From a virus, in IMG/VR virus record IMGVR_UViG_3300007734_000499, positions 1-24,019 of that record: a stretch of DNA of 24,019 bases; one strand, given 5' to 3'. The notes under the pieces are model-generated. The model searched no databases and was not told the DNA's origin. It was given only the letters and a program-made list of their open reading frames with translations. A program made the position numbers and the translations under genes. This document shows, one piece after another, positions 1 to 15,941 of this stretch (the first letter of the stretch is position 1; each line of letters starts with the position of its first letter).

Positions 1-831
1 GGTCGTATGCTTAGACAATATCGTATGGCAACTGACTTAACCAAGATGTCAGTCGGCGACAGTGATTGGAACAACTTACGTTTATATGGACCTCAGGACG
101 CAGGTGTTGCAAGCATCGCCATCCAGTACTCTCCGTCTAACAGAAAAGAAGGTCAAGTCACAGTGCTGCCAAGCATGCCTTATAACGATATTGCTATGAT
201 GTCAGCCGGCCTGCTATATTCTCCTATGGACTTCCTTGCAGGACAGAAAGTCTTGAGCACTGGTGAGCGTGAATACGGTAAGGGATTCATTATTGGCAAA
301 CTTGCGCCAGTGCCAAGAGGAACGTTCAACTTCATTGCTGGTCAGACAATGGACGATGTCAAGATGGCTGCAAACCAATTGTCACCAACTCATATTGCAG
401 CTGCTGCTACTTTCCAAAAAATGACTGGTGTGCCTGCTGTTCAAGCGTTGACAGAAATGTTCAATGCAAAGCCAAGACCTGCACTTCCTGGAGAGAAAGC
501 ATATGATGGAATAGTCTATGAACTCAGTCCAAAAGACTTTGACAGCTACAAAATGTACCTTGTGAAAACTATCCAATACACTGGTACATCAGCCGCCGTG
601 AATGAATGGGCTAAATCATACTCAGGTACTGACTTGGCTGGTACCACTGCTTCAACATACTCAGAGGCGCTTGGTCTGACAAGTAAGTATGCAGCACCTA
701 CTCCAGAATCTCTGCAAAGAAAAGCTGCTGACCTCTCTGCTGGTATGTTGGAAGCTGGAACGTCTGAAAAAGAAGTTGAAGCATCATTGAAGAGACCAAA
801 AGCACCAGCTGCTGGCGGTCGTGTAAAATAG
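1..831 (+). CDS. C-terminal part of a large probable virion protein (5' truncated)
   Basis: The frame is open from the first base (GGT CGT ATG) and ends at TAG 829-831, so at least 276 residues are present and the true start lies upstream. I do not recognise a domain. The sequence is soluble and mixed alpha/beta, rich in Ala, Ser and Thr, with no membrane segment. The last 40 residues are charged (Glu/Lys/Arg) and end in an Ala/Gly/Pro tail ending RVK. It lies upstream of structural genes and a fibre, so the C-terminal end of a big internal virion or tail protein is the likeliest reading. That is inference from position only. Confidence 0.6.
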   Translation, partial: GRMLRQYRMATDLTKMSVGDSDWNNLRLYGPQDAGVASIAIQYSPSNRKEGQVTVLPSMPYNDIAMMSAGLLYSPMDFLAGQKVLSTGEREYGKGFIIGKLAPVPRGTFNFIAGQTMDDVKMAANQLSPTHIAAAATFQKMTGVPAVQALTEMFNAKPRPALPGEKAYDGIVYELSPKDFDSYKMYLVKTIQYTGTSAAVNEWAKSYSGTDLAGTTASTYSEALGLTSKYAAPTPESLQRKAADLSAGMLEAGTSEKEVEASLKRPKAPAAGGRVK

Positions 832-859
832 TTGACTGGTTAGTTCGTTAGCGTAATAT
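832..859 (+). promoter_or_regulatory. sigma70-like promoter ahead of the 881 gene
   Basis: TTGACT at 832-837 and TAATAT at 854-859 are separated by 16 bases, a good match to a bacterial sigma70 -35/-10 pair. It starts directly after the stop codon of the preceding gene. A Shine-Dalgarno AAGGAG at 868-873 precedes the ATG at 881. The TATATAC around the -10 also resembles the TATAC motif ahead of other operon heads in this window. Confidence 0.5.
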
Positions 860-880
860 ATACAATTAAGGAGTTTCATC

Positions 881-1204
881 ATGGCAAAATCAAAGAATTT
901 CAAAGTTAAGTCTACAAAGAAAGTAGTCAAGGTAGACGTCAACGAGGGCGCTTATCCCGAGTCATACGCATTTGTTGTTAATGACAATAGAAGCGGTGGC
1001 AGTGGCGGCAATGGTGCTGGCTGGCGTCCTCGTCCTGAGAATGCGACTCAAAGTCCTGAAGGACAGAATGTAAAGTATCAGCCTCCTCGTGGTGGTGGTA
1101 AGTCCAGCATCAGCGAGTTGCCTGGTCAGTACACAGCGGCAATCCCTGTTCCTACCAAACCAAAGAAGCCTGCTCCCAGTAAGGGCAAGCCGTCGGCCAA
1201 GTAA
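881..1204 (+). CDS. small basic, disordered protein, probably virion-associated
   Basis: This 107-residue protein starts at ATG 881 behind a strong AAGGAG. It begins with a Lys-rich stretch (MAKSKNFKVKSTKK), has a Gly/Ser-rich middle around residues 38-48, and ends with Pro/Lys-rich sequence (KPKKPAPSKGKPSAK). Composition predicts an unstructured, positively charged protein with no enzyme motif. The position between a large virion protein and fibre-type genes suggests a minor structural or nucleic-acid-binding role, which is inference. A ten-codon ORF at 1206-1238 (MAKASKKSRR) follows at once and echoes its N-terminus. Confidence 0.65.
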   Translation: MAKSKNFKVKSTKKVVKVDVNEGAYPESYAFVVNDNRSGGSGGNGAGWRPRPENATQSPEGQNVKYQPPRGGGKSSISELPGQYTAAIPVPTKPKKPAPSKGKPSAK

Positions 1205-10297: not shown

Positions 10298-12343
10298 ATG
10301 GCTAGATCAGAAGCCGATCGCATACGCTTCGTGCGTGCAGCACTCCAGAATCATACGTCATATTGGGACAATCAACGTCCTACTATGCGCAAATACAAGA
10401 ACGTCTACATGACGCAGTTTTACCGTGATGTCGACATTGTCGCTGACACTAGCATTCGTGTAGAAACTGCTGATGCCTACGCTGCAGTCGAATCTCTGAT
10501 GGGATCGCTCTTCACCAAGTATCCAGGTGTCGAAATTGGCGATGATATCACTGGCAAGGGCGATGCTCAGGTCGTTAAAGAACTGTCCAACAACTTCCTT
10601 AAGTCTTCACGTCAGCAAATTGAAAATGCTGCTCGTATGGCCCTCATCTACACAAGCTCTTTCCTGAAGTTGGCACCACGTGAGAGCAACACTGTCCTTG
10701 GCAGGATTGCCCTCCGGGCTATTCCTCCTTGGCAAGTCATTCTTGACAGAGATGCTGCTGCCTGGGAAGATGCTCGCTTCATTGGTCATGTCTATTACAT
10801 CTCAGTCGATGAGGCAAATGAAAAGTTTGGCTACAAGAAATGGCACGGTGTGGCTCAGAAGGATTACTTCACAGACTTTGAACGCAATACTGACCGTAGT
10901 TACAAGTCTTATGGCGACACTAGCGGTGGTGACCTTCCTAATGAGTATCTGTATATTGAAATTGTGGAAATGTACGACTTCCTTAATGACGAACTCCTCT
11001 TCTGGACCTCACAATGGAAGAACGGGGAAGAACTCCTAAGCAAAGACAAGATTCCTGTCACCACTTACGATAATCGTCCCCTCAGCAACATCGTCCCATT
11101 CTACTTTAGCCGCACACCTGACCGTCCAATGGAAGGTTACAGCACACTGGGCCGAGTTTATGATCAATGTTTCGAAAAGAATATCCTCAGGACATTCTGG
11201 GCCAATGCCGTTCGCCGTGATAGCCGCCAGTACATCTACAAGGAAGGCGCCTTTGATGAGGATGCCCTTGCCAAGATCACAAGCGGTGTTGACGGTGCCA
11301 TGGTGCCCACAGATAGTGATGATCCGCTCAACACTCTGATCTCCCAGGTCCCAGTTTCTCCTATCTCCAGCAATCATGCCCAGTATCTCCAGTATATTGA
11401 GGCAGACATCCAACGTGGTGCAATGACTGCTGGCTTTACACGTGGTGAGGCAAGCAAAGCAACGGCAACTGAAGTCACAGTCCTTGCCCAATACACTGCT
11501 TCTGAACTTGGTAAGATGGCCCGTGACCGCGATGGAACAATTGAAGCAGCAACTGCTCTTTACGTCCGCATGCTCATTCCTCTTGTCGATGATAGCGAAA
11601 AGACTGTCATTGTCACTCCTTCAGGTGCTAAAATCGTTACGATTGCCGCCCTTGATGCCGACTGGACTGTCTATGCTATTGACGGTGGATCGACTCCAAT
11701 GACTGATGCACTTCGCAAGAATCAAATTATGCAACTCCTTCCGAGTCTCGTCCAACTTGGCGTTCCTCCCTTGGCAATCAAGGAAGAAGTCATTCGCCTC
11801 TTCGGTCTACCTGAGACTTTCACCAAAGAACTTCCAGCTCCTGAAGAACCTATTGCAACCGAAGCCGCACCGGCAGGACCTGAAGCCGTAACACCTACTG
11901 ATTGGTGGCGTATGAAAGATGCTTGCCCGAAATGTGGAGGAGACAAAGACACGCGTTCTAAAGTATGTAAAGAATGTCGAAAACTTGGTGGATGGAAATG
12001 CAAAAAGCATAAGCCACATGGCATGCATCCAAACTCTATTCGACGTGGTCCTCAAACTCCTGAACATATTGAGAAGCGTTGTCAATCACTTGGATATCGT
12101 GAACGAGATGTTAGATATCCAATTCATCTTAACTCTCAAGAAAAACGAGCAAAACAACTTTGGGCAAAACTTGTAAAAGCACGTGATCAAAGTTGTAGAA
12201 TGTGTGGAAGTGGTGATAGATTACATGCTCACCATATACTTAGTCATAGCAAACATCCGGAGCTATCATTGATTCTGAATAACGGAGTAACTCTTTGCCA
12301 CCAGTGCCATTGGGATGAACATCGTCTCAATGGCACGTTGTGA
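10298..12343 (+). CDS. portal protein fused in frame to an HNH endonuclease
   Basis: This 681-residue frame starts at ATG 10298 behind AGGA and follows TATATATAATC (10272-10282). Residues 1 to about 535 read as a podovirus-type portal (head-tail connector): MARSEADRIRFVRAALQ at the start, a mixed alpha/beta body, RGEASKATATEVTVLAQY helices, and a Pro/Ala/Glu-rich end (EEPIATEAAPAGPEA). The portal would form the dodecameric DNA gate. No stop codon follows. At residue 539 the frame runs into a zinc-finger and HNH endonuclease module, described separately. The fusion is visible in the sequence. Whether the phage makes a fusion, or starts the HNH part internally, cannot be told here. Confidence 0.85.
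   Translation: MARSEADRIRFVRAALQNHTSYWDNQRPTMRKYKNVYMTQFYRDVDIVADTSIRVETADAYAAVESLMGSLFTKYPGVEIGDDITGKGDAQVVKELSNNFLKSSRQQIENAARMALIYTSSFLKLAPRESNTVLGRIALRAIPPWQVILDRDAAAWEDARFIGHVYYISVDEANEKFGYKKWHGVAQKDYFTDFERNTDRSYKSYGDTSGGDLPNEYLYIEIVEMYDFLNDELLFWTSQWKNGEELLSKDKIPVTTYDNRPLSNIVPFYFSRTPDRPMEGYSTLGRVYDQCFEKNILRTFWANAVRRDSRQYIYKEGAFDEDALAKITSGVDGAMVPTDSDDPLNTLISQVPVSPISSNHAQYLQYIEADIQRGAMTAGFTRGEASKATATEVTVLAQYTASELGKMARDRDGTIEAATALYVRMLIPLVDDSEKTVIVTPSGAKIVTIAALDADWTVYAIDGGSTPMTDALRKNQIMQLLPSLVQLGVPPLAIKEEVIRLFGLPETFTKELPAPEEPIATEAAPAGPEAVTPTDWWRMKDACPKCGGDKDTRSKVCKECRKLGGWKCKKHKPHGMHPNSIRRGPQTPEHIEKRCQSLGYRERDVRYPIHLNSQEKRAKQLWAKLVKARDQSCRMCGSGDRLHAHHILSHSKHPELSLILNNGVTLCHQCHWDEHRLNGTL
11912..12343 (+). 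mobile_element. HNH homing endonuclease module at the portal 3' end
   Basis: From in-frame ATG 11912 this 143-residue module has a zinc-finger start (CPKCGG, CKECRK, CKKHKPHGMH), a basic middle and a classical HNH domain. The HNH part includes CRMCG (C633, C636), AHHI (H645, H646), LNNG (N661, N662) and CHQCHWDEH (C667, C670, H671, H675). All key residues appear intact. It is more AT-rich than the portal before it and the gene after it. No good Shine-Dalgarno precedes ATG 11912. It fills the portal/zinc-ribbon junction, with its stop overlapping the next start. Insertion by homing is the likely origin. Confidence 0.82.
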
Positions 12344-12813
12344 GGTGTATCTCGCCAATATACGAATTCTGCTGTGAAGAGCATGGTCGCTTTGATGACC
12401 TTGTCCCAATGGGCCAAATGACGCATGCCTGCCCACAGTGCTCACAGCAATCTGTCAAACTTGTTTCAATGCCTGCCAAGACTGCCACACTCTGGAATAG
12501 TCGTTGGAATGAGGGGCTTGCCTCCACTGGCTTCCACTCTTATTCAGTTGGTGGACAAGTCTGTGACAAGCGCCAGGAAGAAGAGATTATGAAGAAGCGC
12601 GGATTCATCAATGAGAAAGATCTCGGTGGTGATTCATGGCACAGTTCCAAATCTCAGGCCATCATAGATGACAAAAATAAACTAGAAGCTGATGCTGCTC
12701 GTTATCGTACCAATCTGAAGAAGTTTGATGGTGACAAAGTCAAAGCAGTTGAAGAAACATTTCCCGCAAAACAGATGCTAGAAGAAGCAGCTATTCACGA
12801 TGCAACAACTTAA
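12340..12813 (+). CDS. FmdB-type zinc-ribbon protein
   Basis: From GTG 12340 the product is 157 residues. Its start contains SPIYEFCCEEHGRF and later HACPQCSQQ, so Cys12/His15 and Cys31/Cys34 form a probable zinc ribbon. This resembles the FmdB regulator family, which normally begins Met-Pro-Ile-Tyr-Glu. Here that Met position reads Ser (TCG), and a GTG four codons upstream, overlapping the HNH stop, is the only near start. The rest is charged and helical (IIDDKNKLEADAARYRTNLKKF). Such zinc-ribbon proteins occur beside portal genes in phages; their job in virion assembly or regulation is not established. The start may have been altered by the HNH insertion. Confidence 0.7.
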   Translation: MRCISPIYEFCCEEHGRFDDLVPMGQMTHACPQCSQQSVKLVSMPAKTATLWNSRWNEGLASTGFHSYSVGGQVCDKRQEEEIMKKRGFINEKDLGGDSWHSSKSQAIIDDKNKLEADAARYRTNLKKFDGDKVKAVEETFPAKQMLEEAAIHDATT

Positions 12814-14383: not shown

Positions 14384-15415
14384 ATGGCAATTTCCAATGA
14401 GCTCTTGTCCTCGACGCTGTTCTCGATCAGAGACGGCGAAGTGGATGAACTCTTTCAGCGCGTTCCATTCCTCGACTTCGCAAAGAAGTTGGGCGGTATC
14501 GAGTACGAGGACGGTGGTATCAAGATCCAGCGCCCCCTCGCAGTCACCAATCACTCCACCATCACACAGCTTGCAACTGGCTATGAGCCTGTTTCTCTGG
14601 CGGTGAACGATGTCATGCAGCCTGCCCTCTATGAGTGGTCGGACTTCGTGGCTCCTATCGTCATCACCAAGAAAGAAGAGCTGGAGAATGCCGGCGAGAA
14701 GGCGATCGTCAAGATCGTTGAAGCTCGTATGCGTAACGTCATGGGACTCCTCCGCAGGGAAATCAACAAGCAGCTCGTCGGTGCTAACAGCGCCGTTCTG
14801 ACCTCGCTTGGCTCCCTGTGTGGCGATCCCATCTCAGGCGTCACCACCGGCTTCCTGCAGCAGGGCGCTCCCACTGCGGCTGGCCAGACTAACACCATCG
14901 GCGGACTCTCCAGAGCCCTCGTGCCGGACGGTAACGGTCTGTTCAATCGTAGCTTCGACTGCGCCGCTGGCTTCAACGCCAACGGTATCCGTGGCATGCA
15001 TCAGATTGCGGCTGAGACTTCTGCTCGCGCTCCTATGGGCGAGATCAAGTTGATCCTGGCTTCTGAAGCTGGTTACGCCAACTACCGTCGCGCCCTGTTC
15101 AATCAGGAGCGTTACATCGATGAGAAGCAACTCAATGCAGGCTTCATGTCCCTCGCCTTCGGTAATGCCGCAGTCGTTCAGGATGTGTTCATGCCCGCTG
15201 GTGCGGCTCTCGATACGGCCAAGCCCAACACCATGTACTTCATTAACTTCGACGGTATCAAACTTGTGATGCACTCCGATGGCGACCTCGCGGTCTCTCC
15301 CTTCGAGTTCATTCCTGGTACGACCGCTCGCTCTGCTCAGATCTACTGGAAAGGCCAGCTCATCGCTGACAATCTGGCTAGCTGCGCAGTCCTCTTCGAC
15401 GGAGACACTTTCTAA
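14384..15415 (+). CDS. major capsid protein
   Basis: This 343-residue protein begins MAISNELLSSTLFSIRDGEVD. It shows a mixed alpha/beta body consistent with the HK97-like capsid fold: a long alpha helix with ENAGEKAIVKIVEARMRNVMGLLRREINKQL, A-domain strands, and a C-terminal stretch with DGIKLVMHSDGDLAVSPFEFIPGTTARSAQIYWKGQLI. Position after the scaffold, its own leader and a markedly GC-rich, C-ending codon choice (CTC, ATC, GGC, GCC) compared with neighbours all fit the most highly expressed structural gene. No delta domain is obvious because a separate scaffold is present. Confidence 0.88.
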   Translation: MAISNELLSSTLFSIRDGEVDELFQRVPFLDFAKKLGGIEYEDGGIKIQRPLAVTNHSTITQLATGYEPVSLAVNDVMQPALYEWSDFVAPIVITKKEELENAGEKAIVKIVEARMRNVMGLLRREINKQLVGANSAVLTSLGSLCGDPISGVTTGFLQQGAPTAAGQTNTIGGLSRALVPDGNGLFNRSFDCAAGFNANGIRGMHQIAAETSARAPMGEIKLILASEAGYANYRRALFNQERYIDEKQLNAGFMSLAFGNAAVVQDVFMPAGAALDTAKPNTMYFINFDGIKLVMHSDGDLAVSPFEFIPGTTARSAQIYWKGQLIADNLASCAVLFDGDTF

Positions 15416-15416
15416 A

Positions 15417-15941
15417 ATGGCAACTACTACAATCCTTCAGTACCTCCAAAATACTGGCAAGTCAGTTACAACTGGTGCGTCTGTCTTTCTTGGAACTACT
15501 CCTCTCGATCGTCTCCAGACTGAGACCTTCCTTACTGAGACTGCAGTCGTCAAAGGTCAAGTCGTCTCTGTCGACTTTGCCAAAATGGCTACTGACACGA
15601 CCGGTGGATACTCGGCTCTGACCGTCATCGCTGGCGTTGGTAACGTCGTCACCAAGACCTGCGCAGTGGGCGTGGCAGCGGAGTCCGTAACTGGCACCGC
15701 CACCAATCCTCAGCCTGTCAAGGTCATCATCCGTGGTCCCGCTCTTGCGGTGCCTGCGGTCGGTGCGATTGCTCAGGGCGCTCCTGTTATTCTTGATACT
15801 GCCGGCGGTGTTGGCTCTGTCAAGGTCCAGGACAACTATGACGCTGCCGTGACCGCTCCTGTAAAGGAAGCACTCGGTATCGCCATGACTGCAGCGGCGG
15901 CCAACTTGGTCAACGTGTACGTGTTCGGTAAGGGCATCTAA
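15417..15941 (+). CDS. head accessory / decoration protein
   Basis: This 174-residue protein starts at ATG 15417, one base after the capsid stop. An upstream extension of the frame lies within the capsid gene and is not used. It is beta-rich and small-residue-rich (GVGNVVTKTCAVGVAAESVTG, VKVIIRGPALAVPAVGAIAQG), like capsid-binding decoration or stabilising proteins encoded next to capsid genes. Base composition follows the capsid gene, so it is probably also made in quantity. A terminator follows 12 bases after the stop. The family is inferred from position and composition. Confidence 0.65.
   Translation: MATTTILQYLQNTGKSVTTGASVFLGTTPLDRLQTETFLTETAVVKGQVVSVDFAKMATDTTGGYSALTVIAGVGNVVTKTCAVGVAAESVTGTATNPQPVKVIIRGPALAVPAVGAIAQGAPVILDTAGGVGSVKVQDNYDAAVTAPVKEALGIAMTAAAANLVNVYVFGKGI

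Follow-up and report, generated by a model that had tools for sequence, protein, structure and literature searches.

In the virus record IMGVR_UViG_3300007734_000499, of which the whole analysed stretch (positions 1 to 24,019, i.e. 24,019 nucleotides; hereafter the window) was examined, the portal gene runs without a stop codon into an HNH endonuclease gene. The history that we favour, with a probability of about 0.88, has two steps: insertion of an HNH gene that overlaps its neighbours at both ends, then the loss of two bases (AT), private to this record, which gives the appearance of a portal-HNH fusion.

The uninterrupted portal ORF (10298..12343, plus strand like all features below) starts at ATG 10298 and encodes 681 aa. 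Its residue 539 is a methionine (ATG 11912-11914) from which a complete zinc-finger/HNH protein is read down to the TGA at 12341-12343. On these points the original prediction, made from the sequence of the window, holds: the portal frame lacks a stop and enters the HNH part at residue 539, and the HNH module is complete. Its HNH domain is genuine, with matches to PF01844 (HNH, E 5.5e-6) above the family cut-off and, at a best E of 3.9e-9, to several HNH families of PHROG. The portal part, which in the frame of its relatives corresponds to 10298..11915, matches SU10_portal in Pfam (E 9.6e-10) and PHROG portal families. The HNH gene proper (11912..12343, 143 aa) carries at the N-terminus of its product a four-cysteine motif, CPKC-x10-CKEC (11924..11977), whose zinc-ribbon/DZR matches are weak and below cut-off. 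The catalytic domain (12194..12325) contains two CxxC pairs, the AHHI histidines, the Asn of LNNGVTLC and a final CHxxxH; the HHI, Asn and Cys residues are kept in phage relatives. Compared by sequence with solved structures, the HNH protein gave no match at E 0.1. The next gene (12340..12813) encodes a zinc-ribbon protein of 157 aa (Zn_ribbon_8, PF09723, E 1.5e-8) and is opened by GTG 12340, which shares the four bases GTGA (12340-12343) with the HNH stop, an overlap that had also been predicted correctly.

Searching IMG/VR with the portal part yielded 65 relatives, whose C-termini were compared. Neither the portal part nor the zinc-ribbon protein matched the annotated phage collection at the limits used. 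No portal relative was confirmed in bacterial and archaeal genomes, so a clue to the host is absent.

One of the 65 relatives is a sister virus (L057, present as the complete record L070, IMGVR_UViG_3300011336_000359, 18,316 bases) that is 98.1% identical to the window across 12,837 aligned bases. It has the same HNH insert, with the same ORF and ATG (730..1161), and positions 11861-12366 are alike in both viruses apart from the missing AT and a single base at the outer end. The portal gene of the sister ends CCT ACT GAT ATT GGT GGC GTA TGA (Thr-Asp-Ile-Gly-Gly-Val-stop), and its TGA overlaps the HNH ATG (730) as ATGA. The window reads CCT ACT G--AT TGG..., i.e. it is one AT short at about 11900, so that the portal is read on in the frame of the HNH gene. 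By pairwise alignment the deletion of two bases lies at 11898..11903 (CTGATTGG in the window, CTGATATTGG in the sister), about four codons ahead of the portal stop, and the series ATT GGT GGC GTA TGA (Ile-Gly-Gly-Val-stop) is still found in the window at 11901-11915, one frame over. Thus a virus with the same insert retains an intact portal stop, and the insertion did not remove it, contrary to what had been proposed. As the two aligned records read, it is a separate and recent AT deletion in the window record, or an assembly error there, that hides the stop.

The lost terminus is well conserved. We compared 38 junctions of closer relatives, taken from the loci of the portal scan with obvious duplicates omitted and L070 included. 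In all 38 the portal ends with Ile-Gly-Gly-x-stop; more distant portals (L054-L056, L059-L064) have other C-terminal ends. The portal stop overlaps the ATG of the next gene as TGATG in 27 junctions, and 24 contain GGAGG within the Ile-Gly-Gly-x codons; the relatives tested gave anti-SD duplex energies of about -9 to -11 kcal/mol. The Ile-Gly-Gly-x codons (ATCGGAGGT) double as the ribosome-binding site of the gene that follows and overlaps, and it is probably at least in part for this role that they are kept. A natural C-terminal extension of the portal, which the original prediction had considered for relatives, was seen in none of the 38 junctions.

The missing AT could be a sequencing or assembly error, the true portal end being IGGV-stop, and to this we give a little less than an even chance. 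Over the 12.8 kb shared by window and sister no other indel changes the frame on balance, as the remaining gaps compensate one another within divergent patches; the loss destroys a motif present in 38/38 junctions, and it falls in a two-copy AT run. Random errors, nevertheless, would rarely hit the last four codons of a gene, the place at which a real mutation is most easily tolerated, and the rest of the contig shows no such errors: its other genes have their full length when set against L070-L073 and further relatives. A slip of one AT pair at this place fits a tolerated real mutation, and it fits a single assembly error equally; between the two the balance is roughly even. The refuting case named with the prediction, read errors that hide a portal stop near 11900, comes close to this result.

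Does the long frame encode a genuine functional fusion, in which a nuclease at the C-terminus of the portal becomes part of the virion or works in packaging? In the window record the frame is open with both halves intact, portal tails of the family vary in length and sequence so that an extension might be tolerated, and HNH proteins adjoining terminase or portal can serve packaging (PMC12724721). But the sister, with an identical HNH gene, keeps its portal stop, as do all 38 junctions with their Ile-Gly-Gly-x end. The fused frame is known from one contig, and no second independent record of it was found in IMG/VR. Because the HNH genes of window and sister show no differences, the fusion has no measurable evolutionary history. 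The open frame itself is not surprising, because one of the two possible frameshift classes at this place yields a fusion. A functional fusion seems very unlikely on these grounds, and the portal ring bearing twelve nucleases that had been envisaged finds no support in a junction private to one contig, whose HNH part has not diverged further.

The insert measures about 450 bases, 432 of them HNH coding. The HNH gene is absent from the portal/zinc-ribbon junction in 37 of the 38 relatives, L070 being the sole carrier besides the window, and a scan of IMG/VR with the HNH protein, in which further copies of the insert or of the fused junction were sought, gave the sister as the only other copy. 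As the insert occurs in only two records, the original state of its left edge is read from one sister. Among HNH-less viruses none with a near-identical backbone came to light, and for this reason the empty site is deduced from relatives whose portals are about 93% identical or less. Third-position GC is 0.24 in the HNH gene, 0.47 in the portal gene and 0.42 in the zinc-ribbon gene, all genes measured other than HNH ranging from 0.42 to 0.69; such a low value looks as expected for a foreign gene.

The upper value of this range belongs to the major capsid gene (14384-15415; 0.69), far above the portal, terminase and zinc-ribbon genes (0.42-0.49). In the same region ORF 15279-15941, from its listed start, shares 137 bases with the capsid gene; alignments with relatives in several other contigs begin only at 15417, and the true start probably lies near this position.

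Phage group I introns often carry HNH genes, which would suit an insert that is an intron or another spliced element with its HNH gene. Examples have been described (PMC7344957). Nevertheless a search of Rfam, at the gathering score and at a lax threshold, revealed no intron at the insert, which moreover lies between genes and not inside one. With no ribozyme core in Rfam and no room beside the HNH coding sequence, we rejected the intron as highly improbable.

The free-standing endonuclease genes of phage T4 offer a closer model. The start of T4 mobE sits on the stop of nrdA (UAAUGA), and 5 of the 12 free-standing endonuclease ORFs of T4 overlap the upstream ORF (PMC2988022). Like MobE and the mobA-mobE arrangement, the insert is a promoter-less, intergenic HNH gene between conserved phage genes (PMC2988022), and in the sister allele its start codon overlaps the upstream stop, as in mobE. 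Differences nevertheless appear: in contrast to the T4 mob genes, the HNH domain of the window follows a four-cysteine motif and lies at the C-terminus, the insert shares four bases with each neighbour, and in the window record the deletion has put the upstream stop out of frame. The HNH protein also has relatives in Staphylococcus phage 6ec (AIA64062.1) and Enterococcus phage 9183 (QOC57595.1), about 29-32% identical over most of the protein (tblastn). These are free-standing genes at other gene junctions, in unrelated phages of Gram-positive hosts; in 6ec the gene is separate, between two tail/tape-measure genes.

The gene could instead be a conserved component of DNA packaging and not a mobile gene. 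Its place near terminase and portal genes recalls HrdP, the GVE2-type packaging HNH of Skunavirus, which adjoins the portal gene (PMC12724721). However, HrdP is found in every member of its genus, between TerL and portal, whereas the HNH gene of the window lies 3' of the portal, is rare and sporadic with a foreign composition, and shows no conservation across its lineage, being absent at this junction from 37/38 relatives. A packaging role of this kind is quite improbable. With an intact domain, an intergenic position and a sporadic distribution with an empty site in relatives, the insert agrees with free-standing HNH homing genes, and our best reading of the comparison is that of a putative homing-type HNH gene in the mobE style, overlapping both neighbours. 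It adds to a known class of free-standing phage HNH genes and the case is, to that extent, largely ordinary.

At the right edge of the insert the zinc-ribbon gene has changed its beginning. The family motif Met-Pro-Ile-Tyr reads Ser-Pro-Ile-Tyr at 12352-12363, as originally predicted, the Met codon being replaced by TCG (12352). Junctions without HNH read GGAGGTGTCTGATG-CC, and the closest of them (L001-L004) GGAGGTGTCTGATT-CC; the HNH-bearing junctions of window and sister read GAGGTGT-ATCTCG-CC. The distance from GAGGTGT (12342..12348) to TCG equals that from GGAGGTGT to ATG or ATT in HNH-less relatives. By this comparison GAGGTGT is a leftover ribosome-binding site of the zinc-ribbon gene, with a duplex energy of -6.9 in the window against about -9 to -11 in relatives. 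The SD upstream of GTG 12340 is weak (-1.5). From these sequences the present zinc-ribbon start is most likely GTG 12340 (also found in the sister, at 1158), coupled to termination of the HNH gene, and the protein would then most likely begin Met-Arg-Cys-Ile-Ser-Pro-Ile-Tyr; a start at ATC 12349 is less likely.

The proposal that the insertion removed the zinc-ribbon start stands in part. TCG and the GTG/HNH-stop overlap are shared by both HNH-bearing viruses and so belong to the allele with the insert; since ATT already stands there in L001-L004, the closest relatives without HNH, the insertion is not the sole cause of the lost Met. ATT takes the place of ATG at the zinc-ribbon start in L001 (6624-6628), L002, L003, L004 and L030, each with a strong ribosome-binding site ahead, and is possibly a natural start codon there.

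Beyond the insert, from 12366, the zinc-ribbon genes of window and sister diverge: 75/120 bases are alike in the head (about the first 45 codons of the gene) and 166/170 in the body. The head of the window is nearest to that of L004 (106/120 bases) and the head of the sister to that of L003 (109/120). Such swaps occur family-wide over a conserved PA[KR]TATLWN body. The head forms a module of about 40 codons (12366-12490 in the window), of MPCYEYKC, MPLYDAVC and MPIYDF types among the L001-L058 junctions. A border of exchange next to the insert is in keeping with published work that places nuclease genes at borders of genetic exchange (PMC10448857). But because heads also swap without any HNH, this one may be ordinary.

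The whole can be ordered as follows. A promoter-less, free-standing HNH gene of homing type would have inserted at the portal/zinc-ribbon junction of a phage lineage, fitted by overlap of the portal TGA with the HNH ATG (ATGA) and of the HNH TGA with the zinc-ribbon GTG (GTGA). Ribosomes that terminate on the portal gene would re-initiate on the HNH gene, and the zinc-ribbon protein, begun at the GTG, would gain a short extension at its N-terminus. Homing activity, coupled translation and use of the GTG we infer; the insert with its overlaps and its rarity, the intact stop of the sister and the missing AT are seen in the sequences. Later, the loss of an AT in the last portal codons would have moved the portal onto the frame of the HNH gene, creating the apparent fusion. 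If the deletion is real, the portal would carry an extended tail and a free HNH protein might still be made from the internal ATG 11912. That the deletion circulates as a mutation, with virions containing an HNH-extended portal together with free nuclease from this ATG, is nevertheless hardly to be expected.

Thus a selfish nuclease gene can fit between tightly coupled phage genes by means of four-base overlaps on both sides. A single slip of two bases then suffices to produce a fusion gene that is spurious or, at most, of very recent origin, which calls for caution with gene fusions read from single metagenomic contigs.
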